Positions 2,270 through 43,399 of a stretch of DNA of 64,000 nt are shown here, piece after piece. The notes under the pieces were generated by a model that was not told the DNA's origin, searched no databases, and saw nothing but the letters and a program-made list of their open reading frames with translations. Origin of the DNA: Tubulanus polymorphus (lineage: Eukaryota > Nemertea > Palaeonemertea > Tubulaniformes > Tubulanidae); the NCBI RefSeq assembly GCF_964204645.1, contig NC_134033.1:8900231-8964230 (forward strand), given 5' to 3'. The first letter of the stretch is position 1. Each line of letters starts with the position of its first letter. A program made the translations under genes and the position numbers.

Positions 2270-2497
2270 AGTAATAGGGATAATAGGCTTTCAAGCCAAA
2301 GGTCGAACGGTCGAGCTCATAAAAAATGAAAAACATGAAAATAATAACGATTTCTACTTGAATTAGTCGCGAAACTCATAAAAAATGAAAAATAATTCTC
2401 ACACACTCGAATTTATTTTTCATTTTTATTCGCTAGAAAAAAGTGTGAGTAAAGTGTGAGTGAAATAAATTCGAGTGTGTGAGAATTATTTTTCATT
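2270..2497. repeat. Left terminal palindrome of element B, second arm cut short
   Basis: The outer arm (CAAGCCAAAGGTCGAACGG ... ATGAAAAACATGAAAATAATAACG ...) runs inwards to a loop rich in AAGTGTGAGT repeats. The return arm stops at ...GAATTATTTTTCATT near 2497, lacking the inner copy of the terminal motif that the right end keeps. Confidence 0.75.
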
Positions 2498-2539
2498 AAC
2501 TTTTAAATGTTTCAAATCAAATAACAATTAAATTTACAA

Positions 2540-3932
2540 CCAAACAATTTAACATTTCAACAGTCAAACAATTTATCATTTCAACTGTCCAATCATTTCA
2601 ACTGTCGAACAATTTATCATTTCAACTGTCAAACAATTTATCATTTCAACTGTCAAACAATTTATCATTTCAACTGTCTCATCATTTCAACAGTCGAACA
2701 ATTTATCATTTCAACTGTCAAACAATTTATCATTTCAACTGTCAAACAATTTATCATTTCAACTGTCAAAAAATTTATCATTTCAACTGTCAAACAATTT
2801 ATCATTTCAACTGTCTTATCATTTCAATAGTCGAACTATTTATCATTTCAACTGTCAAACAATTTATCATTTCAACTGTCAAACAATTTATCATTTCAAC
2901 TGTCAAACAATTTATCATTTCAACTGTCAAACAATTTATCATTTCAACTGTCAAACAATTTATCATTTCAACTGTCAAACAATTTATCATTTCAGCTGTC
3001 AAACAATTTATCATTTCAACTGTCAAACAATTTATCATTTCAACTGTCTTATCATTTAAATAGTCGAACAATTTATCATTTCAACTGTCGAACAACTTAT
3101 CATTTCAACTGTCAAACAATTTATCATTTCAGCTGTCAAACAATTTATCATTTCAGCTGTCAAACAATTTATCATTTCAACTGTCAAACAATTTATCATT
3201 TCAGCTGTCAAACAATTTATCATTTCAACTGTCAAACAATTTATCATTTCAACTGTCAAACAATTTATCATTTCAACTGTCAAACAATTTATCATTTCAA
3301 CTGTCAAACAATTTATCATTTCAACTGTCTTATCATTTCAACTGTCAAACAATTTATCATTTCAACTGTCAAACAATTTATCATTTTAACTGTCAAACAA
3401 TTTATCATTTCAACTGTCAAACAATTTATCATTTCAGCTGTCAAACAATTTATCATTTCAGCTGTCAAACAATTTATCATTTCAACTGTCAAACAATTTA
3501 TCATTTCAACTGTCTTATCATTTCAATAGTCGAACAATTTATCATTTCAACTGTCAAACAATTTATCATTTCAACTGTCAAACAATTTATCATTTCAGCT
3601 GTCAAACAATTTATCATTTCAACTGTCACACAATTTATCATTTCAACTGTCAAACAATTTATCATTTCAACTGTCACACAATTTATCATTTCAACTGTCA
3701 AACAATTTATCATTTTAACTGTCTTATCATTTCAATAGTCGAACAATTTATCATTTCAACTGTCAAACAAATTATCATTTCAACTGTCAAACAATTTATC
3801 ATTTCAACTGTCAAACAATTTATCATTTCAACTGTCAAACAATTTATCATTTCAATTGTCAAACAATTTATCATTTCAACTGTCAAACAATTTATCATTT
3901 CAACTGTCAAACAATTTATCATTTTAACAGTC
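2540..3932. repeat. 24-bp minisatellite array of element B
   Basis: About 58 units of a 24-bp repeat (core CAACTGTCAAACAATTTA). On the - strand each unit is eight codons, MINCLTVE, so open frames run for 60-90 codons. A 17-bp short unit (CAACTGTCTTATCATTT, seven bases deleted) recurs every 185-250 bp and shifts the frame, giving a higher-order structure. Variant units with A-to-G or C-to-A changes (MINCLTAE, MINCVTVE) are scattered. It lies directly 3' of the element's gene. I regard it as non-coding repeat, not a protein gene. Confidence 0.93.
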
Positions 3933-3996
3933 AGATATTTAAACTGTTAGATATTTAAATCATTTAACTCGATTCAATAATTATAATGTTGAATTG

Positions 3997-4647
3997 TTAC
4001 TCTTTACGCCAGTTTTTATGTTTAATTGTTTCATAATGCTTTGATTTATGTGATTTTAAGTATTTACCTCCGCAATAACAATGCACTTTTTCATTAGGAT
4101 TGAATTTTCAAAATTCATCATCTAAATTACATTGAACTGCAATATCTTTATATGATTTTTCATTATCTAATTCACATTGAATTCCAATATTTGATGAATT
4201 TTCATTATAGATAATTTGTTTATTATCAAAATTGAAATAATATAATTGTCTTTTTTCAATTCTTAAGTTAATCAAATCATTGTAATCTTTTGAAAGTATT
4301 ATATCATCATTTCTTTCATTGAAAGGAGTTTTAAGAATATTAATTATGTTTTCATCTAAAGTTCCTTTAAAATTTAAAACTGTATTGAATACTTTAGCAT
4401 TTTTAACACCATTATCAAAAGTATCTACTAGTTCAGTAATTAAATATGTTTCATTTGATAATATTTGATTAATTACAGTAATATTTTCAATTTTATAATA
4501 CCTTGCGTGCACTAAATTTGTTGCTGAAATATAATTTTTAATGTAAAACTGTGAAAATGATTTATTGGTTTCATTGATTTCGATTTTAAAGTTGGGTTCT
4601 TCTTCTTCTGTCTTCATTTTAATAACAAAATTTTTATTAAAACTCAT
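3997..4647 (-). pseudogene. Element B protein of the NEKSYKD/QCNLD family, internal TGA
   Basis: From ATG at 4647 (MSFNKNFVIKMKTEEEEP) the frame is open for 179 codons to a TGA at 4108-4110. Read on in the same frame, it continues for 36 codons to TAA at 3997 and encodes KFNPNEKVHCYCGGKYLKSH then KSKHYETIKH, a Cys/His cluster that aligns with the end of the element D protein. So the TGA has cut off the putative zinc finger. The N-terminal 120 residues (IKNYISATNL ... KIENIT ... YLITEL ... FNTVLNFKG) align with the D protein. A repeated motif follows: QCELDNEKSYKDIAVQCNLD. An OB-fold or nucleic-acid-binding role is a guess. A homologous copy lies in element C. Confidence 0.7.
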
Positions 4648-4767
4648 TCAAATATAAATATTCACTGTTTTAAATATGAATTATTTCACTCACACTTTTA
4701 TATTGAATAATCTATCAATTTATATGTTATTCATATATATTTTATTCATGTATATGAATATTTTAAG

Positions 4768-5109
4768 AGTAATAGGGATAATAGGCTTTCAAGTTAAAGG
4801 TTGAACGGTCGAGTTCATTAAAAATGAAAAACATGAAAATAATAACGATTTCTACTTGAATTAGGAGTGAAACTCATAAAAAATGAAAAATAATTCTCAC
4901 ACACTCGAATTCATTTCACTCACACTTTACTCACACTTTTTTCTAGCGAGTAAAAATGAAAAATAAATTCGAGTGTGTGAGAATTATTTTTCATTTTTTA
5001 TGAGTTTCGCGACTAATTCAAGTAGAAATCGTTATTATTTTCATGTTTTTCATTTTTTATGAGCTCGACCGTTCGACCTTTGGCTTGAAAGCCTATTATC
5101 CCTATTACT
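4768..5109. repeat. Right terminal palindrome of element B, 342 bp
   Basis: A nearly complete palindrome bounded by AGTAATAGGGATAATAGG at 4768 and its complement at 5109. Inner arm CAAGTTAAAGGTTGAACGG; outer arm, complemented, CAAGCCAAAGGTCGAACGG. The centre includes TCACTCACACTTTACTCACAC. The inner end abuts TGAATATTTTAAG, as in elements C and D. Confidence 0.9.
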
Positions 5110-5115
5110 AGTAGT
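5110..5115. repeat. Target-site duplication of element B (right)
   Basis: AGTAGT, identical to 2264-2269. Confidence 0.85.
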
Positions 5116-5256
5116 GAGTGAGTAAGTAATTAGTGTTTGGCAAGGCATGAAGTAATATATATAGAAAGAAGGGCATTGTGCGGAGAAAAGCGATAATTTA
5201 AATCAGCACCAATATCTGAGGGACGAGTAATTAGGGCAGACTCAACTATGTGGGAT

Positions 5257-5649
5257 AGTTTTACTTGCCGACATCGCCGACATTGGGATCGAAGGACTGG
5301 GTGTGTGCGTCGATTACCCTAAAGTGGCTGTGGTCGAGGGCTGTGTGTGTGCGTGGATTACCCTTATATAAAGTGGCTGGGTGTGTGCCTGGATTACCCT
5401 TACATAAAGTGACTGGGATCGAGGGGCTGGGTGTGGCGGGGATTAACCTTATATAAAGTGCCTGGGATCGAGGGGCTGGGTGTGTGCGTGTAATAGCCTC
5501 ACATAAAGTGGCTGGGATCAAAGGGCTGGATGTTTGCGTGATTTACCCTTATATAAAGTGGCTGGGATCCATCGAACCCAATGTCGGCACGTAGAACTAA
5601 CCTACATTAGATATCTCTTCCAATGTCGGCGATGTCGGCAAGTAAAACT
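5257..5649. mobile_element. 393-bp unit with perfect 30-bp inverted ends and minisatellite core
   Basis: Bases 5257-5286 (AGTTTTACTTGCCGACATCG...) are the exact reverse complement of 5620-5649. Between them are about five units of an imperfect 50-60 bp repeat containing GGATTACCCTTATATAAAGT and GGGATCGAGGGGCTGGGTGT. A further partial end copy (CCCAATGTCGGCACGTAGAA) lies at 5578. The perfect arms suggest a MITE-like or recently converted unit; no clear target duplication. Confidence 0.6.
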
Positions 5650-5951
5650 AACCTACATTCAATTGCCGGCCCTTCTCACTGTATGATTTCTTAACATTGC
5701 GTCTGAGGATCCAAATCACAACTTCCGTTTCTATGTAATCATACACCGAAGGAACTACAATCCCATACTTTCCTATAGGCCTTTTTGATCCATTTGTTCA
5801 AAATGGAAGAGAAATGAGAATTTTTCTTAAGACGATGTACCGCACAATTCGGATCAAGTATGAAATATGGTCATGTAGTCCCTCAGTGCGGAAGCTTAAG
5901 ATAAAATGAATGAGTGATTAGGTTCATAATTCTGTATTTGAATTATAACAT
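5650..5951. other. Unassigned DNA
   Basis: No gene or repeat recognised. Confidence 0.4.
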
Positions 5952-6550
5952 CGGCAATCCCGACATTCCGACACTCCCGACATACCAGCAATCCGACATA
6001 CCGGCAATCCGACATACCCGACAATTCGACATACCACGATCCAAGCACCTCTCTACAGGGGATTATTAGGAACCGAACGCCCCACGATCCCGGTACCTCT
6101 GTACAAGGGAATATTAAAAACCAAACTCCCACGATCGCGGTATTTCTCTACAGGGGATTATTAGGAACCGAACGCCCAATGATCCCAACATCTCTCTACA
6201 GGGGATTATTAGGAACCGAACGCCCCAGCCTTACAAATATATATTCTCAAAACAACTGGCCTGGTTACATAATGACTGGAATGTCTGTATGTAGGTTTGC
6301 AGCATTGCCGGCGTGCCGGTTTGTCGGGAGTGTCGGTATGTCGGATTGCCGGTATGTCGGGAGTGCCAGTACGTCGGTATGCCGGGAGTGCCGGTATGTC
6401 GGGAGTGCCAGTATGTCGGTAGGTCGGGAGTGCCGGTATGTCGGTAGGTCGGGAGTGCCGGTATGTCGGATTGCCGGGAGTGCCGGTATGTCGGAAGTGC
6501 CGGTATGTAGGATGTGCCGGTATCTCGGATTGTCGTTATGTCGGGAATGT
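5952..6550. repeat. Inverted pair of short tandem arrays around a 50-60 bp repeat
   Basis: 5952-6035 contains units such as CCGACATACCGGCAAT; 6290-6545 contains the opposite orientation, TGCCGGTATGTCGGGAG, in about twelve units. Between them (about 6020-6230) are four copies of a repeat with the core CTCTACAGGGGATTATTAGG and GAACCGAACGCCC. Open frames with repeated CRYVG residues are products of the array. Confidence 0.85.
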
Positions 6551-9500
6551 TAAGATTGGCAGATCTTTGGTCAGCATTGTGCGTATTGGTACGTCAGGTA
6601 AAAAGGCCATTGGACTAGTTTTCCATATTTTATACTTGAGCCAAAGATTCTTGATGCCTGAATGAAGAGAGTCCTAAAGGACAAGGGGTGCTCTGAAGAT
6701 TTTCTCGGGAAAATCCCTCTAATTGCCACAAGATTTCACAGCACAATAATCTTTTTTACCCATTTTCATTGAATTGATAGCATGAACTCTTTTTGAACAT
6801 GTATCAACAATTGAAGCCATTTTCCGAAGCAACAGATATGAAATGAAAAATGTACGGCCATAAACTCGAATTCCCGCATCGAAAACAGCGCTGAAACTCG
6901 GAATGACATGAGACGCGCTGCGGTTAAATAGCTGTAGAATAAATATTAGGTAAGATATCTGAAGATTTTAAACTTCATTTGAAAGGGAGCGTTCATGCGC
7001 ACAAATCCTGAAATGTTCAAATTTTTTAGAAACTTATTTCTGAAAATACAAAACTTCAAAGTTGAGTACCCTGAATTTTTACACGAGCGGCAAAAACTGA
7101 ACTCCTATTTTCATATCGCTCTCATGTCGCATTATTGGAAGTTTGAGGAATTAATTTTACATAACTGGAACTAGAGATTCATACGGTTTGAACGTTGCTA
7201 AAACTGTGAAAATCCATCTAGGGACCGATGAAATATGATAAAAGACGCATCAAAAATTGTCTTGAAAAGGGGAAAAAAATGACTAAAGTACCCTTACAAA
7301 ATGGCGGCTAGCAACTGTAAAATGGTTTATTGCTCCAAGGTGTATATTTTATTCAGGTTGTTTAGAAGATCATCATTAGGGTAGTTTAGGGTGATGGGAT
7401 GATATTTTGTTTATTCTATCTTTTCGATTGTGTTTCTGGAGTTATTTCGTTACCAAGAACAAATTTTTACTGGAGGATCTTGGGATGAAATTACGAGGAG
7501 TCTTTGGGGTGTTGGCCGAGCTAGTTAGTAGCAGCAGAAAAAAGGTCTATCTGTATCTGAATTTGGTTTTTAGAACACGGTAAACCATAATGTAATATTT
7601 AATTATGCTGCTCGTTATTGGACTAACTACGTATCGTATTTTTCTTACCAAGGATGCAGTAAAAGATTTAATAAGCGGCACGTTACTCGTTTTACGTAGA
7701 CAATATTTTTCACGGATTATTATTTACCCCCGAGCTGGATTTTATGCTCAGCATATAATCTTTTTACATTTATAGTATACTATTAGTACTAGTAAGGACA
7801 GTGACAGGTTTATCATATCGCTTCAAACGACCTACGGCACACGGTGGTCATTTAACATTCCCCGGCAATGCGTCCTACAGTTGTTATCGGATCTAGATGA
7901 TGCAACTTACCAATAATCTGCGTATGTGATATGGGTCATAGGCTACAAGAATATAGAGCCGCTAGGGCCGTGGGGCGGGACACAGGTAACCAGAAAAAGG
8001 GCAGTTCTATAGGATAGCAGTAATATTTGCAAAAGAAAACTTTTATAAAATTTCTGGGGGCAACTGCCCTCCCCCGCCAATTCCTGCCCTGGCCGCATAT
8101 TAACTTTACCCTCGGAGATGTACTAGGGGTGGGATCGATGGTTTCATAAACATTACTACAATTTTAATTTGGATCTCTTCTAAATTTTCTATTGATGTTC
8201 CATGGGTGAAAGAATACAACGATTTTAAGACCGCCTTGTTTGGGGATTCGACCAAAGGGGTCGCCCTACTAGGTAGAGCCATGTTTCTGTGAACTGTTAC
8301 TAATCCTTCTGATTAGACTGTCACCTTATTCTTAACTATGCTTAGCATCTCGTGTATTACTTATCTATTGGTCTGGGTATCTTTAGTATTTGGATCATGG
8401 GATCGTTTGGACGTTTCCTACAATGAACAATGATGAAGTTTACAAAACTGTACCAGCCGACATGCTGTTTGTATCATTCGAAACTTGCAGAGATGTTAAG
8501 ATTCACAAGGAAATTATTCAAAATAGACCATTCAGCAAATCTAACGGCATACTCAAACGATATATAAACTGCCGATCCTTAGTCTTTTCATGGCTATTTA
8601 AAAGACACTAAATTGTCTGATCAGTGACCGCCACTGGGCCAACATAGTAGCATGGATTTGAAGAGAAAAACCAGGGAGCAGTCGCTCAAAAGTTGGTAAG
8701 AGTTAACCAGTGGATAGGCCCTAGTTGACAAATTGGCAATTAAAGGTTTATTGTTACTTCGGTATCTATACACAATAGCCCCTGGTAACTTTCGTCGGGC
8801 GCCCCTACTATTTGAGTTACCAGGGGCCAGTGTGGGGGTGATATTCATTTCCGAAGTGCCAAGGCCCTTGGCTTCTAGTTTGTACACAGGGTTAGTAACG
8901 TAGATACGAAGGATTAATAAATATATGATCTATGACTGCCAACTGGCTCTCATCTCTTTAGTAATCTGTTCAGCCATCCCCAAGACTTCGTAGCGTCGGA
9001 GGTTCGCAGGAACGAAATGCATATCATTAAAAAGGTTTCGAATAGACTTATTTCGTTCCACGAAAAAAAATTTACCACGTCACGTCAGGTAATTTCAACT
9101 AATCAACCTATTGAGCATATTGAGTACGAATTTCAAATCAGCAATTTCCAAAAGGTGCCCGCTGCAAGTAGTTGCGCTTATCGGTGTAAAATCTGGCGTC
9201 ACTTTTCCGAAAAAAAACTATTCATAGTACACTTTTACGTGCTTTGTTCGACGTAAGATTATTAATCTCGTTGATGGGCATTATGGGTGTTAATAGACGT
9301 CGAGGAATAGATTACATAGAGACCCATCACAATCAATGAAGTTAGGTAGGCTATACTTAGATCAATCTTAAAGGAGCTGTTTGAAAATGAGCACTGCAGT
9401 TGAGTCTACACAGGTTCCTGCCTTTCACTAAGCACTTTGTGGTATTTTATATTTAATTTTTGAAGTTTTATAAAATGTCTACTTTCGCACTTGTATGTAT

Positions 9501-15903: not shown

Positions 15904-15939
15904 TCCCGTATACAAGGAACCCCCGTTAACACCAAGTCA

Positions 15940-18253: not shown

Positions 18254-18410
<157 letters not shown>

Positions 18411-18484: not shown

Positions 18485-18614
18485 GGTTCAGGCCAAAGGT
18501 CGAAGGGTCGAGCTCATAAAAAATGAAAAATAAATTCTCGCACGCTCGAATTTATTTTTCATTTTTTACTCACCCCTTCAACCTTTAACCTGAACCCCTA
18601 TTATCCCTATTATT
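18485..18614. repeat. Left terminal palindrome of element C (tip missing)
   Basis: Outer arm GGTTCAGGCCAAAGGTCGA; inner arm, complemented, GGTTCAGGTTAAAGGTTGA, ending CCCTATTATT before CTTAAAATATTCATAT. The first 18 bases of the outer arm are absent. Confidence 0.85.
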
Positions 18615-18886
18615 CTTAAAATATTCATATTTAAATAGTGTGAGTAAAGTGTTAGCATAACAATCTAGATAAATAAGATCAATTATAGATTTCGAATAAT
18701 AAAAAATCAATTTTAAACATAAAAAGTGTGAGTAAAGTGTGAGTAAAGTGCAAACATAAAATGTGTGAGAAAAAGTAACGAGTAATTAACGAGTTGTTAG
18801 AATTAAAATTAATTTTAAACATAAAAAGTGTGAGTAAAGTGTGATTGAAATAATTCATATTTAAATCATTGAAAATTTATATTTGA

Positions 18887-19372
18887 ATGAGTTTTAATGA
18901 AAGTTTTGTTATAAAAATGAAGACAGAAGAAGAAGAACCCAAATTAAAAATCGAAATAAAAGAAACCATTAAATTATTTTCATAGTTTAACATTAAAAAT
19001 TATATCTCAGCAACAAATTTAGTGTCCGCAAGGTATTATAAAATTGATAACATTACTATGATTAATCAAATATCATCAAATGAAACATGTTTAATTACTG
19101 AACTAATTGATACTTTTGATAATGGCGTTAAAAACCCTAAAATATTCAATACAGTTTTAAATTTTAAAGGAACTTTAGATGAAAACATAATAAATATTCT
19201 TAAAACTCCTTTCAATGAAAGAAAAAGTTATATAATACTTGCTAAAGATTACAATGATTTGATTAACTTAAGAATTGAAAAAAAGACAATTATATTATTT
19301 CAATTTTGATAATAAACAAATCATCTATAATGAAAATTCATCAAATATTGATATTCAATGTGAATGAAATAA
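18887..19372 (+). pseudogene. B-type element protein, relic
   Basis: Begins MSFNESFVIKMKTEEEEP, close to the element B protein. An in-frame TAG lies at about codon 33 (LFS-stop-FNIKNY), the frame then runs through SARYYKIDNITMINQ and LNFKGTLDENIINILKTP, and a one-base insertion in an A-run near 19284 shifts it. The match resumes in another frame (YYFNFDNKQIIYNENSSN) and ends at a stop after DIQCE. The NEKSYKD repeat and C-terminal finger are missing. Confidence 0.8.
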
Positions 19373-19532
19373 AATATTAATTTTAAATATATAGTAGTTA
19401 AAGCATTGAGAAATTAGTTAATGAATAACTGTTAGGTAGTAAGTTTAATTGTTATTTGATTTGAAACATATAAAAGTTAAATATTTCTAAAATATTAAAT
19501 ATTTGTCAATTTATTAATTTTTTTCTTAAATA

Positions 19533-19727
19533 AATGGAAGATTTCAGCATGAAAAAAGTGATTTGAAGCATTATTTAGTAGCAGGAGGATTAATTTTGGC
19601 TGCGCTTTTCTTTTACTATGAAAATATCAGTAAGGATTTGATTAATGAAAATATAAAACTGAGTAAAAAGTTAAAGAAGTTAAATGGAAACAATCACAGA
19701 AATAATAACAATAAACAAGAAAATTAA
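19533..19727 (+). pseudogene. Small single-pass membrane protein relic
   Basis: An ATG at 19533 (MEDFSM) runs to an early stop, but the +1-shifted frame then encodes a hydrophobic segment (HYLVAGGLILAALFFYY) followed by a Lys/Asn-rich tail ending NNNNKQEN and TAA at 19725-19727. This looks like a one-base frameshift in a gene of about 65 codons with one transmembrane helix. No family recognised. Confidence 0.4.
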
Positions 19728-19737
19728 TTTTAGAAAA

Positions 19738-20908
19738 TTATTTGACGCCTGGGAAAAAAATGTAGAATTTCTGGGCTAAGCTTATGTGGAATTGCAAATT
19801 TGAAATCGAAGTTTTAAGTAATTTGGGGAATGATGAGATTTGGCGATTTGGTAGATGATACAGGTCTTCGACTCTAGTAGTGGTTTAAATTTTTTCATTG
19901 AAAATTCTCAATAATTGATCGCGAACTTGCGACCGACTTCATTTACTTATGCCTCTAAGCTGGTCTGCAACTTCATTGCCTCCATGGATGAAGAAAGAGC
20001 TCTTCTGATGTCTGCTTCATCATGACTTCGAGCATATCGTGTGGCCTAGCCAGCCGGCCCGGTCTCCGGGCCCGGGCCACGGGTTTGGCTCATTCGATAT
20101 CCTAGAGTCTTGAGTCTGGGTAGGTTGAAGTAGACATTGTCATTTAAAATAACATGCTTATGTTGTTCTGTATGAATTACCCGAGTGTCATGTATGTTGT
20201 ATTAATTTATTTTAAAATTTGTATTTATTGAATTTGGGAATTTTATCCCGGAATTTCAATGTAATAAGGATCAATAAAGAATTGAATTAAATTGTCACCC
20301 AATACACATGCCATCAGAGGACACGGAGCTGTATATGACAGCTATGCTATTATAAATTGCTATTCTCACGAAACTTGCATACTCCTAATATCAAACATAT
20401 TTTCACAAACGATTGAATATTGAAATTATATGTTTACACATTTTCATATTGACCGCTTGTAGCCGCTGATGAAATTCACGCCGGCCCTACACACATCGTT
20501 GATAGCTTCGTCATTCCACCGGCATGCCCACGTCAGGGTCTGACTTTTATATCAGACTTCCGCATCGTGTATACATCCGCCATTTAACCGAATAATCCGA
20601 TTTACTTATCATTTCTATTTATGCCTGCCGCTTCTGATATAATCATACATCCTTTACTATTACAATACGTCTTCTAATGATATTCAATGCAATATAACAT
20701 TTCGACGTTCAAATATAGGTCATTATATAATCACAGGAAGCCATTCTACATCTATGTCAATAATATTTTGCCAGATAGCTTGTTTGTGTACACATAAACC
20801 TGTGACGTTTTGCACATCGATTTACGGCTGTCGTTTGTAAAATGACGCTGAATGGTTAGCATTGTTTAGGTTTCATAATGGTAACGTTTTATAAGGCGTC
20901 AAAAAAGT
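19738..20908. mobile_element. Nested foreign block: LINE-like tail and MITE arm
   Basis: Base composition is less AT-rich than the rest of element C. About 20120-20300 resembles a LINE 3' end (AATAAGGATCAATAAAGAAT then TTGAATTAAATTG). 20690-20905 is a diverged copy of the right arm of the MITE at 47040-47727 (ATGTCAATAATATTTTGCCA, GTGACGTTTTGCACATCGAT, TTATAAGGCGTC). A GC-rich palindrome lies at 20057-20085. The two outer edges share only TTTGACGCC, so this is not shown to be one element. Confidence 0.55.
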
Positions 20909-20983
20909 TAATGATTTTAAAGAATTATAGGATTAAAACAGCATCTTTTAATTTAATTTATTTTATATATTTTAACTATAAAA

Positions 20984-21289
20984 ATGAGTGAAAGTAAGGT
21001 ATTAGAAATATTACACCTTATATATAAAAATCAACAGAATATCAAATCAATCATAATGATTTCAGGTTTATTTTCTTTTTCAATTTATAGTATAAAACAG
21101 TTGTTAGAATTCTATGATAGCTGTTAAATTAGATACGCTGAATTAAAATATAATATAAATTATCTATCAGATCGAATTGATAATATCAAATGCTGTGAAA
21201 TATGCAATAAAAAATATAAAAATTTAAAGACTTTGAGGAATCATAAATATATTCATGAACTTGATGAAAAATTACATAACTCAAATTAA
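20984..21289 (+). pseudogene. C2H2 zinc-finger protein relic of element C
   Basis: From ATG at 20984 (MSESKVLEILHLIYKNQQN) the frame stops at a TAA after 47 codons, then continues in the same frame to TAA at 21289. The second half holds a textbook finger: CCEICNKKYKNLKTLRNHKY then IH (Cys-x2-Cys-x12-His-x3-His). A single stop separates the halves of a protein of about 101 residues. It differs from the A finger protein in sequence but shares size and position. Confidence 0.6.
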
Positions 21290-21404
21290 GCAATAGACTG
21301 TTAAATTGGCTGAAATATATAAAAATAGATTATATTATAACTATTTCTATATTTAGATTAATTTATTTATATTTATAATTTTTATTAAAAACTTATTTAT
21401 ATAA

Positions 21405-21700
21405 TTATGTACTAGACGTACGAGTAAGAAAGTCAGATTCTTGCCAAGAAAGTAAGATTTCTTGGATTCTTACTCGTACCTGTCTTACTTAGTTTTATAA
21501 AAATGAATAAATTATATGTTTTCACTTAATAAAAATAAAAAATAGATTATATTTTAACTATTTCTATACTTAGATTGATAATTTATTCATTTTTATATAA
21601 TCTAAACTAATTTATATATATAGGTACTAGACGTACGAGTAAGAAAGTAAGAAAGTAAGATTTCTTGGATTCTTGGATTCTTACTTGTACGTCTAGTACA
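21405..21700. repeat. Two small hairpins with TACTAGACGTACGAGTAAG ends
   Basis: At 21411-21490 and 21603-21700 a palindrome starts GTACTAGACGTACGAGTAAG and closes with CTTACTCGTAC or CTTACTTGTACGTCTAGTAC; the second is nearly perfect. Each is preceded by a related AT-rich segment (AATAGATTATAT...AACTATTTCTATA), so a 200-bp unit is duplicated directly. The style is like the terminal palindromes but the sequence is different. Confidence 0.7.
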
Positions 21701-22222
21701 TAAATATCATTAATACTTTTGTCATATATATTTCTGTTTCAATATTTATTTATCTCACAGATTTATTATAAATATTTGGAAAAGTATAAATCATATTCAA
21801 TTATATATTTACATTTATCATTAATAAAAGAGGATTACAATGAAACCATTAGATTGTTAAATTGTTTAAGTATTAAATTGCGTAGATTGTATATTCATAA
21901 ACTAAATGATAAATCACGAATAAGACTGTTAAATTAGCTGAAATGTATGAAATATTGTATGAAATATTAGTTAATCAAAAAAGGGGGTTGAGGTATCAAT
22001 GTATTAAATACGTATTCAATACGTATCAAAAAGATTTAAATAAAAAAACAAAAAAATAAAAAATACTCGCTACTTTTTCTCACACATTTTATGTTTGCAC
22101 TTTACTCACACTTTTTATGTTTAAAATTGATTTTTTATTATTCGAAATCTATATTTGATCTTATTTATCTAGATTATTATGCTAACACTTTATTCACACT
22201 TTTTAAATATGAATATCTTAAG

Positions 22223-22373
22223 AGTAATAGGGATAATAGGGGTTCAGGTTAAAGGTTGAGGGGTGAGTGAGTAAAAAATGAAAAATAAATTCGAGCGTGC
22301 GAGAATTTATTTTTCATTTTTTATGAGCTCGACCCTTCGACCTTTGGCCTGAACCCCTATTATCCCTATTACT
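22223..22373. repeat. Right terminal palindrome of element C, 151 bp
   Basis: Bounded by AGTAATAGGGATAATAGGGG and its complement. Inner arm CAGGTTAAAGGTTGAGGGG, outer arm, complemented, CAGGCCAAAGGTCGAAGGG. Abuts TGAATATCTTAAG on the inner side. Confidence 0.9.
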
Positions 22374-26423: not shown

Positions 26424-26425
26424 GA

Positions 26426-26611: not shown

Positions 26612-26615
26612 GAAA

Positions 26616-35157: not shown

Positions 35158-35336
35158 CCCACAATCACAAGTTCGAAAGAGATTTTAAAACATCAAAACT
35201 ATAAAAATTTATTAAAACCTCGAATTTTCGGTTTTTTTTGAAATGGTTTTTAGCATGAAACCGAAAATTCGAGGTTTTGATAGATTTTTATAGTTCCGAT
35301 GTTTTAAAATCTTTTTCGAACTTTTGATTGTGGTAC
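35158..35336. mobile_element. Fold-back element, about 180 bp
   Basis: A long imperfect palindrome: CCCACAATCACAAGTTCGAA ... AAAACCTCGAATTTTCGGTTT, short loop, AAACCGAAAATTCGAGGTTTT ... TTCGAACTTTTGATTGTGG. Would form a hairpin of about 80 bp in the intron RNA. Confidence 0.8.
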
Positions 35337-35504
35337 TACTTATATTTCATTCGTCTCTCGCGATATATTGCGTAGTTTTATCACGTTAGGATGAGCATGT
35401 TTGGCATACATCGAAAGCAACCGAATTTCTGCGTGAAATAGGCGTTATGGACCACGTTCTTACTCTACAATTCTATTGCTGCTTTAAAATGCTTTGAAAG
35501 CATT

Positions 35505-36395
35505 TTCTACGGCAGATATCCGCGGTGTTGTCATATCGCAGAATCACGGAATCGCGGAATTTTCCAAAAACACGGAATTTCTTCACTTTCACTTTAAGTG
35601 GTGACCGGTTTCCCACGGGGATACCCGGTGTCGGACAAAGCACTGGATAAATCGATGCACATAGTTAGCTTCGAGACCCACTTTTTCGCGCAATTTTGTC
35701 TGAAATTTAGTAGAACCGAACATCATCAGCTCGAAAATGAGCACGGTCGCTCTAGGTCGGGCCGTAGTTTCAGAATGGCTGCAAACGTGAAATGTGCTAC
35801 GACCAATCATGCACCGGTTCCTTGAAAATTATTTTGATAGAAACCGCCGTCTATAGTACCGATAATATGTTTTTTTAAACCCGAGGAATCAACATAGATG
35901 GAACAGCGTTTTCTTCACAAATAACAGAGTTAAGAAAAGAAACCATATTATAATGTTTATTATCATTCAACCTTTATTAACTTTTGTAGATACACCACAC
36001 TCACATAAATCACAATATAGATGCAGGATACGCATAAAAAATCCAAAGCCAGAATATGCATAGTGTTTATTTATTTTCGTCCGACATCGATCATTTGGGA
36101 TATTTCTCTGGGGTCAGCAGTCAATGTTGATGGATTGGTTGCCTACGTATGTTCCCATTTTCTCGTTGGGAAGTATCGTAAATTTGTTAACTGACGATGG
36201 AATTAGATTATCACATAGGCCTCCGGGTATCGGCAAGGAAAACATGCGTCTGGTACCTTGTCCGACAAATGGTATCCCGTGGGAAAACCCGGTTACTATT
36301 TATAGTGGAAATGAAGAAATTCCCTGTTTTTGGAAATTTCCGCGATCCCGTGATTCCGCGATATGACAACACCGAGATATCCGTATACCGTATTT
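35505..36395. mobile_element. MITE with inverted ends of about 130 bp
   Basis: Left arm GATATCCGCGGTGTTGTCAT ... TTTCCCACGGGGATACC ... TGTCGGACAA; right arm is its diverged complement (TTGTCCGACAAATGGTATCC ... ATATGACAACACCGAGATATC). The core has no transposase. No clear target duplication. Confidence 0.75.
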
Positions 36396-36499
36396 TGGAT
36401 ATAACGCATATATTTTCCGGTCCCGAATGCTGTGTTTACCGCCGTAAAAACTACCCGAAATTTTATTCCATTTAAAATATATGTTCTTTTTGTTTTTAG

Positions 36500-36709
36500 G
36501 CAATATATAACGCCGGCGGTATGGTAATGGTGCCACACGCGAAGTTTGGATTTCTACTGTTTCTCATTTTGCTTATGACGATCGCAATATTCGGCTGCGC
36601 GCGGTTCCGTCTGAACAAATTCATCGGAATATCATTCGTTTGCTTGTATGTTGTGTTCATCGCCTATGCATTACTACAAGACCTTCACTGCAAACAGTAC
36701 CTGTGTTAG
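36500..36709 (+). CDS. SLC24: SLC24/NCKX-type exchanger, terminal exon
   Basis: 210 bp including the TAG stop. Encodes AIYNAGGMVMVPHAKFGFLL then two hydrophobic helices (FLLFLILLMTIAIFGCARF and FIGISFVCLYVVFIAYALL) joined by a basic turn RLNK, and ends QDLHCKQYLC. The layout matches the last two transmembrane segments and short C-terminus of SLC24 exchangers, where an LNK(W)RL-type turn is usual. An additional open exon-like segment lies downstream at 37002-37154. Confidence 0.93.
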   Translation, partial: AIYNAGGMVMVPHAKFGFLLFLILLMTIAIFGCARFRLNKFIGISFVCLYVVFIAYALLQDLHCKQYLC

Positions 36710-39700
36710 GCAGAGAATACCAGTTAAGCTGTGAGTGAAATTAATGAAAAGAATTATCGTCATATGGGGTGAACGTTTTACTACACATGTAGTTGAAATT
36801 AGCGAATTTCATTTCAACGAGTTAACATCACAGAGCAGCGAGCAGCGCCTGATTGAACACTAATCCCATGGTGGCCACATTCACCCCATATATGCGACGG
36901 TACGGAAACTTTTTGTGCCAAATGTATAGGCATTGTATATAAATATACACGCAAACTCTATTGCGATCAGTTCCTCCACAATTCTCAATTCTGTTTTTTT
37001 AGTTCTTGAGCTCAAAAAGAACTGTGGACGGAACCGGTCCTGATGATCATCCTCTCAACGCAAGTTCGTCTCAGATAACTCATACCTCATGTTCTGTACA
37101 GACAGAATCTATAATTTATCCTAACCTTCAACGGCACGGCTATTCCTCGATCTAAAACAATAATCCACTTAACTGTTGTCCATCGCATAATTGTCAATTG
37201 TGAAGAAGTGCATATGAACATTGCCAATTTACATAACGTCGATTGTCACCTGTCTGCTGGAGTGTCACTGGCTGCTTCTAATTCTGCAATGTGATCGCTG
37301 GGAGCGCAAGTATAATGCGATGACAAAGAGTTGATCATCGAACTAAGTAAAATAGTATAACAGCTATAGGTTGGAAGGAATAACGGGTGAAATCAAGTTG
37401 CACACAATTTTGTCGTTCATGGAGATCGATGAGTGGGCAACGCTTAACCCGGTACCGGTACCTCGACAGTTGTGAATTAGACGTAACTCGTTACGTTGTT
37501 TTTCCATAGATTGGTTTAGATTTTAATACCCAGCATTAGAGTTACGATAGACTCCACAGCATCGGATCTTTTGTGGACCATGATTTATATATGTAAAAAC
37601 ATATTACCGACGTATTATCGTGTGAAATAGTTTGCTTTTTCTCTCGAGATTTGCCGATATATCAGAAATTCGACTCCAGAAAAAGCGACACCAATCGATA
37701 ATGATCAAGGATACAATGAAATTGACTCGTGTCTTTCATATGATAATATGATTAACCACAAAAAGTTTTTCTGTGATGTTTCTGTTCTTTTAGTCTAGGG
37801 TCAAATTATTTATATTTGTGCAGAAGCTGGTTTCTGTTGACCTCGATGTTTTTTTCAACCTAAAAAAACCTCGCAAGTCATTGTTACATTATTCATTTTC
37901 AAGATGTTTTCCAAATTCATGTACGGCCTACATATTTAAATAATATTTCCCTTTTCTTGAGAAACATTTTTTTCGTATTTTCGTCTGGTATTCATTAGGC
38001 AGCCATCAATGTAAGTCATATAACTGATTGTACATCCAAGGCAGACGGTGAAATCCCATTCTTTATGAAGGGTAGTCAAACATTTCTTCCGAAGTTTATC
38101 TTTTATACAATGTTTTAAGTGATTACAGTTTGAAAGTTACATGTACATGTATATTGTAAAACAATGTTGAGGAATATTGATGTCCACGAGGATTGGGGTA
38201 CCGGCACGGTGAATATACCGGTATGCATAGTTAAATATATCCGCACGGGAAGGTTATCGTTATAAATCTGTAAATATAATGCCCCTTTGTACCGTTGTAT
38301 AAATATACGAATTGAATATTTTAAAATCCATATTTGAAAATTTACTTTCGGTGGTTGTCTTTTAGTCGAGAAAGGATAGTGCGATTGATATGCATCTTTA
38401 ATGGAGATACCTGGAGACGAGGCAGACCTCAAAAGTAGACATGCAGTGATATCTTGATACAATGGTTGACCGTTGACCAAGGAGCAATGAAGTTACATAA
38501 AACCAAGATCAACCGGAGGTCGCATGACCACACATTCTGAGGTCCAAAATATACCCAGGCCACGCATTTTTGTCAATTTTTTATAGCTTTCGGGGGGGGG
38601 GGGGGCAGGAATGTACATGTGAACGAACAAACCTGTTAGGGCACCTATATCGTACAACACTGATCTCAAATTTATTACACGACTCAAAATATACAATATA
38701 ATGCCTTGTCGGGCATGAAGGAGGCTTACAGAATAAAGGCCAATTCCCCATATAATACTTTATACCCCATTAACCAAACATAATTCAGGACACTCTCGGG
38801 CCCAAAGGTCAATTTATGATAAACGACGATAAATCACGTCTATTTCATATCATATCCCTAATTTTCTCATAAGCAACTACCGCGGTTTTCCTTAACGTCT
38901 TAGAACGTAATGGCGTATTGACCTCGCGATTTCAAAATTTCCGCCACGCACATCATGAACCCTGTGACAGTCAACTTCTAACAGGAAAAGTTTACTTATC
39001 GGTCTTCTATTCGTTACTCCAGAAGTATGAACGAACCAAATTATCGGAAATGCGAATAACATCGGTAATCACACGATACTTCCAAGATGTGGTAAGTCAT
39101 CGTGTTTAAGAACGACTGCACCCACGCGAATATGTTCAGAGTTATTCTTACTTAAGCGTATATATCCATTCGCATAACCTGGTAAAATGTACGGCGTCTA
39201 AATGAAAATAATAATCCCGAACGATATTCTTATTCTTTTATCGATATCAGAACTCTGGGTCGTCAAGTTCTGACTCTTTTACACGGATCTGCGGTAACGA
39301 AGTAAGTTTACGACCAGGGTTAGGGTCAGGTCTACAAATGTATCCACGTGATGCCCAAGGAAGCTCTATGGCCGAAAGAAGTTTGGCTATTTCAGTATAT
39401 CTGACAAAAGTTGAAGCATTGTCGGAATTAAGTTCTTTAGGTAGCGATCGACGGCTAACGAATCCGCGGAAAGCTTAATGAATAAAACTGTCCTTGCTTA
39501 AGTCTCTTTACGGGTGCCTGGTTGCGGCACCCGTAAAAGACAGACGTAAGTCTTTTGTTTCCCGGCTAACAACGGTCCAAGGTAATATATTCTGTTGAAG
39601 AAAAGCGATGGCGCATCTGCGACACTGCTCTGTGGTAAAGGCAGCGAATTTGGTATGAGTATAGCGAGCCTGCTATTTTGCGACACGGCATACATTTAAG

Positions 39701-40933
39701 TAGTATGCGTTTCACAAACGGATGAATTAGACGGGCGGCAGAATCGAAAAAGTAGCTTTTTTAACGAGTTTCTGAGAGACAACCAAAATGTTTATCGTTT
39801 ATATGATAGTCTATTTGTTGCCAATGATTTTAGCAACAATGCTTCCTTGATTTGTGGTATCAGTCACCATGGAAACTGCGTCTGAACATAGCTACTGTTG
39901 GAATAACTAATATCAATACAATATTTCTAATGCGTTTGTTTTCCATAAGCATGTATGACGAAAGAAATAGCAAACAAAATATCGATTCCAAATGATATTG
40001 AGCCGCTCTTTTCGATGGAGGTAAAATCATTCAGCTATATTAACTGGAAGTTATCCAGGAAGAAATACACTAAATATTTGGATGGATATATAAAAGCTGT
40101 GGGTACTGGAGTTTGTAATGGGTAGTGTAGTGTGATCTGTGTGCATTAATGAGGCCAGCACACAGATCACATTGTTCAATGGGGTTTGGTCCAGGACTCG
40201 CGAGATTTTCAACAACACGGAAGTAACGTGTAATAAATGATGACTTGAATTGCATGACTACCTACCACCCCTCATTATTGTTGGAAAACTAAACGTTCGG
40301 CACTGACTAAAAATTGGTAATAACATTTTAGAAATGGCCAGAATTTTAACTTAGGTTCTATCTAATTTTTATTTTATAATTGCGATTGGTATAATCTTTT
40401 TTTAAACGGCCGTTAAGGCTTCATGTTTCGTCTGCAATTCACTGCAAATAGTTACGCAACTACGCACATTTCAGTGTTTTTGGCAGCTGTACACTAAATC
40501 GGCACCGTTCGTGACTAGCTTCACTGCGGAATTATGATTAATTAACATCGCCATATCACATCATCAACTTATATTGTGCCTTAAAACCCTAACAGCCGAA
40601 ATAATTGAAATGCACACACGATTTCTATCATTGAAAATTGAGAGAGTGGCCATGTTTGTGATTGCTGCTTCGCGTAAATCCTGCACGGTGGCGGAACCGC
40701 GCGGAGTGGGGCCGATACGTCCAGTATCGCTCACGAACTATGCTATAGGATTGGTTGTCCCCAGATGAAAACACGCTCTATGCGATTCCTTGACGATGAG
40801 AGCGGCGAACTCACATTTAGGAATCAATACTGGGTATTTCGCTTCGGTATCCAACGGCGAATTATGAATACGACAGCCACACTTCTGATGACCTCTTATT
40901 CATTAATATACAGTCTCAAATGGGAAACAGTTT
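36710..40933. other. Exchanger 3' flank and unassigned DNA
   Basis: Presumed 3' untranslated sequence, then intergenic DNA. Apart from the exon-like segment at 37002-37154 and a poly-G run at 38590-38604, nothing recognised. Confidence 0.5.
37002..37154 (+). CDS. Possible alternative terminal exon of the exchanger
   Basis: Directly after a long pyrimidine tract and acceptor (TTCTGTTTTTTTAG), a frame is open for 50 codons to TAA: FLSSKRTVDGTGPDDHPLNA ... HGYSSI. It is hydrophilic, Ser/Thr-rich and phase 0, the same phase as the donor at 34560. Splicing from there would drop the last two membrane helices, so it may instead use a donor I cannot identify, or be chance. Confidence 0.3.
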
Positions 40934-40939
40934 GATTCT
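40934..40939. repeat. Target-site duplication of element D (left)
   Basis: GATTCT, repeated exactly at 43400-43405. Confidence 0.9.
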
Positions 40940-41128
40940 AGTAATAGGGGTTTAGATGTTCTAGGCCAAAGGTCGAAGGGTCGAGCTCGTAAAAAAATGA
41001 AAATAATAATAATTTACAGTTGAATTAGTCGCGCACACTCCTAATTCAACTGTAAATTATTATTATTTTCATTTTTTACTCACTCGCCCCTTCAACCTTT
41101 AACCTAGAACAACTAAACCTCTATTACT
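40940..41128. repeat. Left terminal palindrome of element D, 189 bp
   Basis: AGTAATAGGGGTTTAG ... CTATTACT. Outer arm CTAGGCCAAAGGTCGAAGGG, inner arm complemented CTAGGTTAAAGGTTGAAGGG. The stem includes AATAATAATTTACAGTTGAA and its complement, with a loop around GTCGCGCACACTC. Confidence 0.92.
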
Positions 41129-41535
41129 CTTAAAATATTCATATATATATAAACATAATTTACATGAATAACATTTAAATTGACAGATTATTCAATATAA
41201 AAGTGTTAGCTCTTATAGAATAGAGATATAGATATATTTTAAACATTATTTCAATATTCATATTTGTATGAGTTAGATTTTTAAACATTAAAAGTGTTAG
41301 TAAAGTGTGATTGAAATAATACATAATATAAATCATTGAATATTTATATTTATATGCGTTAAATTCTTATTTTCAATATAAAAAGTAACTAGTAATTAAC
41401 GAGTGAAATAATTCATATTTAAAACAGTGAATATTTATATTTATATGCGTTAAATTCTTATTTTATGTTTAAAAGTAACGAGTAATTAACGAGTTGATGA
41501 AAATATCAATTTTAATAACAAAATTACTTATAAAT

Positions 41536-42213
41536 ATGAATGAACAGATACTACATTTCAAAGATATCGATTTAAATGAATTAGAAAAATATTTTACAAT
41601 TAAAAATTTCATTCCTATTAAAGATTTGATTAAAACTGCGCGTCTTCGTTTTCAAGTGAAAAATATTACTGAATTAGTGTTTAAAAATCACTATCTGATA
41701 ATAGAGTTATCGAATGATAAAGATAAATTCTTATTCAATACAATAATTCCAAAATTCACAACATTTGATGGAATAGATAAACATTTAATAATTACAGATG
41801 AAATGCAATCACTTTTTAATAATGAAAATTCACATAAAACATTATTTTTACACTTACGTTATTGCCCATTCAGAGAATGCTATGTTATTTTTTACAGTCG
41901 AACAATTTATCATTTCAACTGTCAAACAATTTATCATTTCAACTGTCAAACAATTTATCATTTCAACTGTCAAACAATTTATCATTTCAACAGTCGAACA
42001 ATTTATCATTTCAACTGTCAAACAATTTATCATTTCAACTGTCGAACAATTCTTTTATTTCAACTGTCGAACAATTTATCATTTCAACTGTCGAACAATT
42101 TATCATTTCAACTGTCAAACAATTTATCATTTCAACTGTTAAACAATTTATCATTTCATGCTAAACAATTCATGATCTTTAGGATAGTTACTGAAATCAA
42201 AATGATGTTTTAA
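41536..42213 (+). pseudogene. D-type protein, left copy, fused to minisatellite
   Basis: From the family start MNEQILHFKDIDLNELEK the first 116 codons after that Met are identical to the right-hand copy, up to FRECYV. The frame then runs, without a stop, into the 24-bp array and reads as eight-residue repeats TIYHFNCQ before ending at 42213. The NEKSYKD motif and C-terminal Cys/His cluster are lost. An upstream in-frame ATG at 41497 is open, but element A supports 41536. Probably a by-product of the inverted duplication, though the fused frame is intact. Confidence 0.6.
41898..42173. repeat. 24-bp minisatellite of element D
   Basis: About eleven units of the same repeat as in element B (core CAACTGTCAAACAATTTA), with GTCGAAC variants. 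As in B it lies at the 3' end of the gene in the loop between the arms. Confidence 0.93.
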
Positions 42214-42251
42214 TGTTTTTAAATCATCAGTTATGTTATTAGTTTTTATCT

Positions 42252-42812
42252 TTAATATGTGTTATGATATTTTGATTTAAGATGGTGTGATTTATTGTTT
42301 CGAGTATAATATTTTCCACAATTACATAAAACGCTTTCATTAGGATTATATTTGGGCGCAACAATTTCATTATCTAAATTACATTGAATTCCAACATCTT
42401 TATATGATTTTTCATTTGGAATGTCAGGGATAAATCTCTTTTCTTGTAATCTGAAAAACATAACATAGCATTCTCTGAATGGGCAATAACGTAAGTGTAA
42501 AAATAATGTTTTATGTGAATTTTCATTATTAAAAAGTGATTGCATTTCATCTGTAATTATTAAATGTTTATCTATTCCATCAAATGTTGTGAATTTTGGA
42601 ATTATTGTATTGAATAAGAATTTATCTTTATCATTCGATAACTCTATTATCAGATAGTGATTTTTAAACACTAATTCAGTAATATTTTTCACTTGAAAAC
42701 GAAGACGCGCAGTTTTAATCAAATCTTTAATAGGAATGAAATTTTTAATTGTAAAATATTTTTCTAATTCATTTAAATCGATATCTTTGAAATGTAGTAT
42801 CTGTTCATTCAT
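42252..42812 (-). CDS. D-type element protein with NEKSYKD motif and Cys/His cluster
   Basis: Intact frame of about 186 residues from MNEQ (42812). Residues 1-115: FTIKNFIPIKDLIKTARL ... VKNIT ... NHYLIIELS ... FLFNTIIPKF, aligned with the element B protein and weakly suggestive of a small beta-barrel nucleic-acid-binding domain (guess). Then NEKSYKDVGIQCNLDNE, shared word for word with B. The C-terminus VLCNCGKYYTRNNKSHHLKS then KYHNTY has Cys-x-Cys and three His, probably a metal site. The B copy has a stop just before this. It is the only undamaged member in the window. No known family was recognised; a replication or packaging role as in small DNA viruses would be speculation. Confidence 0.75.
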   Translation of the reverse strand: MNEQILHFKDIDLNELEKYFTIKNFIPIKDLIKTARLRFQVKNITELVFKNHYLIIELSNDKDKFLFNTIIPKFTTFDGIDKHLIITDEMQSLFNNENSHKTLFLHLRYCPFRECYVMFFRLQEKRFIPDIPNEKSYKDVGIQCNLDNEIVAPKYNPNESVLCNCGKYYTRNNKSHHLKSKYHNTY

Positions 42813-43213
42813 ATTTATAAGTAATTTTGTTATTAAAATTGATATTTTCATCAACTCGTTAATTACTCGTTACTTTTGAACATAAAATAAGAATTTAACG
42901 CATATAAATATTCACTGTTTTAAATATGAATTATTTCACTCGTTAATTACTAGTTACTTTTTATATTGAAAATAAGAATTTAACGCATATAAATATAAAT
43001 ATTCAATGATTTATATTATGTATTATTTCAATCACACTTTACTAACACTTTTAATGTTTAAAAATCTAACTCATACAAATATGAATATTGAAATAATGTT
43101 TAAAATATATCTATATCTCTATTCTATAAGAGCTCACACTTTTATATTGAATAATCTGTCAATTTAAATGTTATTCATGTAAATTATGTTTATATATATA
43201 TGAATATTTTAAG

Positions 43214-43399
43214 AGTAATAGGGGTTTAGTTGTTCTAGGTTAAAGGTTGAAGGGGCGAGTGAGTAAAAAATGAAAATAATAATAATTTACAGTTGAATTA
43301 GGAGTGTGCGCGACTAATTCAACTGTAAATTATTATTTTCATTTTTTTACGAGCTCGACCCTTCGACCTTTGGCCTAGAACAACTAAACCCCTATTACT
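43214..43399. repeat. Right terminal palindrome of element D, 186 bp
   Basis: Mirror of 40940-41128. Inner arm CTAGGTTAAAGGTTGAAGGG, outer arm complemented CTAGGCCAAAGGTCGAAGGG. Preceded by TGAATATTTTAAG. Confidence 0.92.

Follow-up and report, generated by a model that had tools for sequence, protein, structure and literature searches.

Results

Four elements with common ends

The window, meaning the whole 64,000-nucleotide stretch of DNA that we analysed, contains four AT-rich elements, A to D. Only the right part of element A is present (positions 1–690) and its left end lies beyond the window. The right palindrome of A (569–690, 122 bp) has the outer tip AGTAGTAGGG. On the minus strand, a 97-aa ORF (83–376) corresponds to the N-terminal, C2H2-like zinc-finger part of a Polinton polymerase ORF. 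Positions 114–411 match the polymerase-end region of the long relatives L040, L043, L046 and L047, described below, at 87–89%.

Element B (2270–5109, 2840 bp) is non-autonomous and has inverted ends of ~230 bp that are 99% complementary. The element lies between two copies of AGTAGT, the 6-bp target duplications at 2264–2269 and 5110–5115. The right-terminal palindrome measures 342 bp (4768–5109) and its arms are 94% complementary over 149 bp. The left-end palindrome is incomplete: its inner arm is lost, leaving the centre and the outer arm. Reading of the sequence revealed an AT-rich minisatellite array within B (limits approximately 2540–3930, units ..AACAATTTATCATTTCAACTGTCA..), which is also present in D according to B–D sequence matches. 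A 179-aa ORF (4108–4647, minus strand) is 31% identical to a 199-aa ORF of D and had no match in Pfam and PHROGs searches.

Element C occupies positions 18485–22373. Its left terminus is truncated, with a palindrome remnant at about 18485–18614, and its right-terminal palindrome is 151 bp long (22223–22373). Because the outermost ~18 bp of the left end are lost, C has no flank duplication to compare. The element is 90.5% identical to B over 569 bp and carries an 83-aa fragment of the same small ORF (19058–19309, plus strand). Its interior contains stretches that resemble L047, for example 20901–21332 (82% over 434 bp).

Element D (40940–43399, 2460 bp) is flanked by the 6-bp duplication GATTCT (40934–40939 and 43400–43405). 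Inverted repeats of ~958 bp, 98–99% complementary, enclose a core of ~550 bp. The outermost parts of these repeats are the palindromes, of 189 bp on the left (40940–41128) and 186 bp on the right (43214–43399). The latter was the query that retrieved the long relatives. A 199-aa ORF (42252–42851, minus strand) ends in a motif that, by eye, is zinc-finger-like; none of 53 candidates was a homolog at E ≤ 0.001. A 113-bp piece of polymerase-ORF DNA (42148–42260), 92–94% identical to L040, L042, L043 and L046, is the relic of an internal deletion.

The sequence-only reading of this DNA had described ends common to A–D, palindromes at all complete termini and exact 6-bp duplications around B and D. 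The palindromes and duplications are those listed above. The common ends were confirmed by a shared motif, AGTAATAGGG, with nine matches in the window, far above chance (0.09 expected; 0 of 100 shuffles reached nine). The exact motif is absent from the 10 kb to the left of element A (L054). The small proteins had been left unrecognised, in place of integrase or polymerase. A–D do have small ORFs only, and no full integrase or polymerase gene of their own, but the ORF of A is a polymerase N-terminus: over 89 aa it is 79% identical to the beginning of a 1357-aa polymerase ORF in L040.

Long relatives with the same ends are Polintons

Further copies in the host genome had been anticipated, and AGTAATAGGG has 3126 matches there (1563 + 1563) compared with 393 (188 + 205) for a reversed-pattern control. 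We read four long elements of 11–19 kb from the same genome, all with the same palindromic ends. Their inverted repeats, 246–449 bp when aligned, extend past the palindrome into the interior. Between them, the four encode an rve integrase, an A32-type ATPase, a protein-primed DNA polymerase and a double-jelly-roll capsid protein; a long relative with integrase, polymerase or capsid genes had also been envisaged at the outset.

In Pfam searches, the rve match in L039 (2.5e-9) was above the cut-off and a Chromo match in the same element (7.9e-5), the domain that often accompanies the retrovirus-type integrase of Polintons, was below the family cut-off. The packaging ATPase matched Pox_A32 (6.9e-12), and DNA_pol_B_2 was found in L042 (1.1e-9). 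The 1357-aa ORF of L040 did not match DNA_pol_B_2 at E 0.01 and gave Endonuclease_7 alone (2.4e-5). However, this ORF has a YFDTDS motif and, around motif C, shows an 88–97% match to L042. Two of the seven polymerase copies that we fetched across motif C contain an intein. The capsid candidate had no match in Pfam and PHROGs sequence searches. Its AF2 model (pLDDT 84.5) matched PDB structures including iridovirus, PBCV-1 and mavirus capsid proteins, so that the gene is predicted to be of double-jelly-roll type. A further product, L040:3960–4715 (minus strand), which we take to resemble the Polinton minor capsid protein, had no match in Pfam, PHROGs or NCBIfam. Searches of PHROGs, NCBIfam and PDB sequences with the other long-element proteins gave nothing convincing except the intein. 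The adenain-type protease motif H[WY]..[FWY]D[SP].G was absent from ORFs of at least 80 aa in six pieces, a search that a divergent protease could escape. Among viral contigs, the terminus pattern and the ATPase had 0 matches each, and none of 38 pattern matches from the capsid alignment was confirmed.

The long relatives are almost certainly Polintons/Mavericks, and A–D belong to the same family. The outer ~401 bp of D are 88–93% identical to the ends of Polintons L041 and L043–L046, and across the long relatives the ends match those of D at 86.7–93.1% over 209–417 bp. D and A also keep polymerase DNA. These matches support the earlier guess of a defective or satellite Polinton-like lineage. 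A–D are internally deleted, non-autonomous relatives that share Polinton ends and not autonomous Polintons. The family is young, high-copy and recently active.

The outermost letters of the ends are AGTAAT or AGTAGT, i.e. 5'-AG inverted ends. We assembled 16 end pairs with their flanks in view. Identical 6-bp flanks were present in 15, including B and D, and the 16th pair differs by one base. On contig C1, all 33 sampled palindromes were element ends and none was solo; inner tips are thus seemingly unused for integration. An independent MITE origin was rejected on the same sample.

Terminal palindromes have matched tips and polar arms

We next compared 70 termini. Loci L026 and L051 are one place and were counted once; two candidate pairs were left out, one in L001 due to chance and one in L055 in an alternative register. 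These termini are not independent units for counting, since they share ancestry and in some cases both ends of an element are included. Palindrome length ranges from 122 to 413 bp and mean arm identity is 89%. Both ends of the elements are long palindromes predicted to be able to fold into hairpins, and the 3'-ended strand gives the more stable fold in 70 of 70 termini.

Outer and inner tips covary. The 23-nt tips are identical in 50/70 termini, across 12 tip versions. Mismatches between outer and inner tips total 49, compared with a mean of 264 and a minimum of 214 when inner tips were shuffled among termini. Concerted copying between arms could hold tips alike without function.

The arms have a fixed polarity. 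A marker reads ..GGTC in the outer and ..GGTT in the inner arm of 68 termini, and in the other two one arm does not carry it. Most inner tips are followed by a CTTAAAATATTC-like junction. Genome-wide, there are 952 T-type and 52 C-type inner junctions. When the second marker of the C-type junctions was compared with the curated set, 45 were inner-only, 1 both-arm, 4 neither-arm and 2 outer-only. We read the two outer-marker cases. One is an outer end that adjoins CTTAA host flank. The other is L088, where interior sequence lies on either side of one palindrome and the left partner looks truncated. There was no clear inverted (flop) palindrome among the 52 C-type junctions, five of which are unassigned.

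Arm mismatches also differ between strands. Those giving G.T number 408 on the 3'-ended strand and 33 on the 5'-ended strand; 501 of the 942 arm mismatches are transversions, which fit neither strand. Counted as distinct combinations of column and type, the ratio of 3'-ended to 5'-ended strand is 13:1 for differences shared by at least three termini and 5:8 for private ones (Fisher p 0.004), a comparison that rests on 14 shared transition classes. For differences seen in two termini the ratio is 4:2. The G.T pattern would arise equally, with no selection, from C-to-T damage biased towards an exposed strand.

Discussion

Taken as a whole, the data are probably best explained by deleted Polinton relatives together with a hairpin-origin mechanism, an account that blends identity and mechanism. 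For the mechanism by itself, we tentatively suggest that protein-primed replication starts from a hairpin at the 3' terminus, and not parvovirus-style rolling hairpin copying; we regard this as possible, short of likely. The integrase of full-length elements would presumably move A–D in trans, recognising the outer tips and generating the 6-bp target duplication that is seen around integrated copies. Protein-primed copying by strand displacement would release a single strand, the 3' end of which could fold into a hairpin. The outer and inner tips would then pair and so restore a duplex origin at this end. In adenoviruses, a panhandle forms between opposite ends; a hairpin origin would dispense with this. 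The inner tip may also template repair of an eroded outer tip, and the fixed base differences between arms may bar the inner tip from serving as an integration end. Since B persists with one incomplete palindrome, a full palindrome on both sides is not demonstrably required. It is rather unlikely that the full proposal applies, namely a hairpin-ended protein-primed replicon with a single-stranded stage, in which the hairpin at the 3' end would be a self-contained origin for the polymerase.

The palindrome could instead have no job. One ancestral inverted duplication of an end, due to polymerase fold-back or template switching, would leave a passive relic in which gene conversion keeps the arms alike. 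The free variation in palindrome size, the arm identity of only 89% on average and the incomplete palindrome of B are all consistent with this. However, blind conversion should erase differences between arms, whereas the ..GGTC/..GGTT marker holds in 68/70 termini and tips stay matched through 12 versions. Furthermore, the wobble bias is found in shared and not private arm differences, and we consider a relic somewhat unlikely. Hairpins of the parvovirus or poxvirus type, with 3' self-priming and hairpin transfer, would account for the presence of one motif at both tips of a long terminal palindrome, with conserved interior sequence adjoining. L088, with its single palindrome flanked by interior sequence, is what a dimer bridge would look like. 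Yet such transfer inverts the palindrome each round and predicts both orientations, which the excess of T-type junctions and the lack of a clear flop argue against. Some parvoviruses do keep a fixed orientation of one end, and integration could select one orientation. Among the 20 ORFs scanned with Pfam there was no HUH endonuclease or NS1/Rep-type match. We view hairpin transfer as improbable.

An RNA role, with hairpins acting as terminators or double-stranded RNA, would turn the G.T bias into a G.U bias that RNA tolerates. This is highly improbable: in L039 and L040, the ORFs of at least 120 aa nearest both ends point inward, so that end-proximal transcripts would carry the C-A mismatched strand and not the G.T strand, and the tips are conserved as far as the integration boundary. 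The motif at both palindrome tips does resemble a minimal element, as if short palindromic MITEs had inserted at both ends and carried the middle along. Such a composite deserves next to no credence, given the want of solo palindromes in the sample, inverted repeats that continue beyond the palindrome in D and in the four long elements, and the CTTAAAATATTC-like junction after most inner tips.

The Polinton kind is itself known; the new aspect is a Polinton family with palindromic, polar ends. In the open-access literature that we searched, as far as its text was accessible, we found no description of terminal palindromes or inteins in Polintons. Extrachromosomal copying of Polintons is known by deduction and not by observation, and one source goes no further than noting that a single-stranded, protein-primed route has been suggested (PMC4061559). 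A young family with long, polar, palindromic ends gives a concrete and testable handle on this copying. From the covarying tips and strand-biased wobbles, the folding strand and the position of the origin can be predicted, and natural comparisons are available in the same genome, which has numerous similar copies as well as short elements derived by deletion. A hairpin-ended replicon, if true, would link dsDNA Polintons functionally to the ssDNA world of bidnaviruses and parvoviruses. The family also bears on how protein-primed polymerases entered ssDNA viruses related to the hairpin-ended parvoviruses.

Comparison with known systems

The likeness to Polintons/Mavericks comprises the protein-primed polymerase, rve integrase, A32-type ATPase, double-jelly-roll capsid protein, 6-bp duplications and 5'-AG ends. 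Vertebrate Mavericks, as described in the available text of one study, measure 12.7–24.6 kb and have repeats of 46–1447 bp, 6-bp duplications and the end motifs (AG)3 and (AGT)2 (PMC8097293). The family described here differs in that each end is a long palindrome with polar arms and in the intein of two of seven polymerase copies. The adenain-type protease motif was not found in the six pieces searched.

In AAV-type parvoviruses, the end is a terminal palindrome in which the outer sequence is repeated, inverted, adjoining the unique interior. The elements here have the same palindrome layout. The sequence-only reading had drawn this analogy with parvoviruses and hairpin telomeres; it stands for shape, but the flip and flop orientations expected of rolling-hairpin copying were not clearly found among integrated copies. 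The protein-primed PolB and the integrase-type 6-bp duplications are further differences from parvoviruses. Bidnaviridae, according to the accessible text of one source, are ssDNA viruses with a Polinton-derived protein-primed PolB and inverted terminal repeats that form no parvovirus-type hairpins (PMC4061559). On that account, both the type of polymerase and the inverted repeats are shared with the Polinton described here, whereas the ends of the latter appear capable of forming hairpins.

Long elements sharing the ends of the window elements

We searched the host genome with the right end of D (40940-43399), one of four AT-rich elements, A to D, in the window, and scored 40 places of 1,193 candidates. 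Among these best 40 of 1,193, the matches occur as facing pairs, at spacings that include 7.6, 11.3, 16.5, 18.2 and 18.8 kb. The 7.6-kb pair was read whole and the other four in two pieces each; for further pairs on host contig C1, spaced by up to 24 kb, the end sequences alone were read. The four long elements carry palindromes of 186-190 bp at both termini.

Selected ORFs were assigned to families. Locus L039 encodes an rve integrase, with a chromodomain match below threshold, and a Pox_A32-type ATPase, while locus L042 encodes a DNA_pol_B_2 polymerase. A 415-aa L039 protein has an AF2 model (pLDDT 84.5) that matches double-jelly-roll capsid proteins, the iridovirus, PBCV-1 and mavirus proteins among them. 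At locus L040, a 1357-aa polymerase ORF falls short of the E 0.01 limit for DNA_pol_B_2; it contains YFDTDS and its sequence matches L042. A search by motif only found no adenain-type protease. Taken together, the integrase, ATPase, polymerase and capsid genes identify the long relatives as Polintons/Mavericks by their defining gene set, the minor capsid protein being unconfirmed. A long relative with the same ends and with integrase, polymerase or capsid genes, for which the sequence-only reading had proposed a search, exists in the host genome.

The first long ORF of the L039 element, L039:2000-2662(+), has by eye an HNH-like pattern (HIDHVLPISKF..NLRPL) and no Pfam match. An intein with LAGLIDADG domains lies within polymerase motif C (YFD/TDS) in L042 (~4900-5954(-)) and in locus L048 (~1975-3036(+)). 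Profile matches are LAGLIDADG_3 (2.1e-8), Hom_end (5.2e-5) and Intein_splicing (7.4e-5, below its cut-off). The intein is present in two of seven fetched polymerase copies spanning motif C; in the L042 copy the frame is interrupted and a C-terminal piece is repeated. According to PMC5784728, inteins of eukaryotes are reported from the nuclei of fungi, the chloroplasts of algae and some viruses.

The window elements

The terminal motif AGTAATAGGG, proposed from the sequence as common to the window elements, has 9 matches in the window against 0.09 expected. Across the host genome there are 1,563 + 1,563 matches, compared with 188 + 205 for the reversed control. The exact duplications claimed for B (2270-5109) and D are both present, with AGTAGT and GATTCT, respectively, on both flanks. 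Terminal palindromes were borne out at five termini (122, 342, 151, 189 and 186 bp), whereas the palindrome at the left end of B is present in part only and the left end of C (18485-22373) has lost its tip. Inverted repeats of ~958 bp make up almost all of D apart from a core of ~550 bp. The outermost ~401 bp of D show 88-93% identity to the ends at L041 and L043-L046; matches to L039, L040, L042 and L047 are shorter. A 113-bp piece inside D is 92-94% identical to polymerase-ORF DNA. Of the small unrecognised proteins reported earlier, B and D have one in common (31% identity, no assigned family), with no database homolog for that of D at E<=0.001. The ORF of A (1-690) corresponds to the beginning of the polymerase ORF, with 79% identity over 89 aa. 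Judged from these alignments, A to D are deleted relatives of the long elements.

The tip TAGGGATAATAGGG occurs at 569-587, 2270-2287 and 22223-22241. Compared over 14 positions with the core recognition site of the homing endonuclease I-SceI, it has a single difference; this is probably coincidence, though odd beside LAGLIDADG inteins of the same family. A long (TCTG)n microsatellite lies at 950-1090, ~260 bp right of A.

Target duplications and abundance

We assembled 16 end pairs from facing ends with their flanks in view. The 6-bp flanks are identical in 15 of 16 pairs, B and D included, and differ by one base in the other. The family is both young and abundant. Inverted repeats are identical over 357 bp in one element and 95-98% identical over 246-449 bp in three others. 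In the ATPase search, identity to the query is 94% or more in all 150 scored copies, and 141 of these (hand count) lack an internal stop; being the best 150 of 1,572 candidates, they are biased to intact copies. Exact matches number 1,301 for the outer-type tip pattern and 1,151 for the inner-type one, from which we infer a Polinton family of the order of several hundred elements.

At L048/L049 (C4:10574925-10626107), facing ends 51 kb apart have matching ATCGTT duplications. A full palindrome between them (L049:4977-5380) has outer and inner tips unlike each other; the arrangement is one of nested insertions. On C1, for which the listing is complete, strict inner junctions all lie in the middle (12.1-19.9 Mb of 32.1 Mb), a pattern that points to a refuge near the centromere or in DNA of low recombination. 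Elsewhere on C1 the bare motif is found as well.

Anatomy of the terminal palindromes

Removing a chance pair, an alternative register and one duplicate reading of the same place reduced 73 candidate termini to 70. About half had been found by likeness to the D end and the rest came mostly from the C1 motif listing. Since the termini have common ancestry, the figures describe a consistent pattern and not independent trials. Reading inward from the tip, the outer arm has ..AAGGTC.. (C-type) and the inner arm ..AAGGTT.. (T-type) in 68 of 70 termini; in the other two the marker is missing from one arm. The more stable fold is that of the 3'-ended strand in all 70. Over their first 23 nt, outer and inner tips are identical in 50 of 70 termini, in 12 different versions. 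Outer-inner tip mismatches sum to 49, whereas shuffling the inner tips between termini gives a mean of 264 and a minimum of 214. Past the tip, differences between the arms recur at particular positions. Arm mismatches give G.T pairs 408 times on the strand with the 3' element end and 33 times on the other; transversions number 501. The bias was also counted with each column-and-type taken once over the first 50 positions, a difference being shared when seen in three or more termini. G.T pairs on the 3'-ended versus the other strand were then 13 versus 1 for shared, 4 versus 2 for twice-seen and 5 versus 8 for private differences (shared versus private, Fisher p 0.004).

None of 33 motif pairs noted on C1 (two, L079 and L081, identical) is a solo palindrome, and palindromes as independent elements were therefore rejected. 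Each of the 33 is bordered by element interior at one edge and by host DNA at the opposite edge. At L059 a loose pattern flagged both sides, yet the host flank AATCAA matches the partner's duplication. Of 96 exact C-type tips between 12 and 18.84 Mb of C1, 70 are paired with an exact T-type tip placed as in a palindrome, a lower bound because at least 4 of the 26 unpaired tips belong to palindromes whose inner marker is a variant. Pairs of C-C type number 2 and of T-T type 0.

Flip/flop transfer of the hairpin predicts both arm types at inner junctions. Genome-wide, these have a T-type arm in 952 cases and a C-type arm in 52 (control 0 for each). Compared with the curated set, the second marker of the 52 is inner-only in 45, both in 1, neither in 4 and outer-only in 2. 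The two outer-only junctions were fetched and read; the 5 with a marker of both or neither kind are unassigned. By eye, L087 is an ordinary outer end adjoining CTTAA host flank. L088 (C4:14344950-14345450) is, also by eye, one palindrome with interior on both sides, head-to-head, the left partner apparently truncated; a dimer intermediate or a nested event may have left it behind.

A model for the palindromic ends

The 6-bp duplications, polar palindromic ends, covarying tips and strand-biased pairing are all observed features of these elements. In protein-primed strand displacement, the strand needing a duplex origin would be the strand whose 3' end forms the terminus. A 3' hairpin pairing outer with inner tip could rebuild that origin locally. 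The best-kept hairpin belongs to the 3'-ended strand, the same strand that would have to present the duplex origin. Fixed arm differences and the absence of solo palindromes among the pairs noted on C1 suggest that integration does not use the inner tip as an end.

Two alternatives may also account for these features, namely strand-biased C-to-T damage of an exposed strand and conversion between arms.

Comparison with known systems

PMC4061559 states that bidnavirus repeats form no parvovirus-type hairpins and that a single-stranded protein-primed route has been suggested for Polintons, and PMC11071308 describes the terminal-protein domain of the Polinton polymerase. The literature searched, partial in coverage, yielded no description of terminal palindromes in Polintons, and neither palindrom- nor hairpin occurs in the main text of PMC8097293. 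That paper describes vertebrate Mavericks with end motifs (AG)3 and (AGT)2, repeats of 46-1447 bp and 6-bp duplications, the last as in 15 of the 16 end pairs here.
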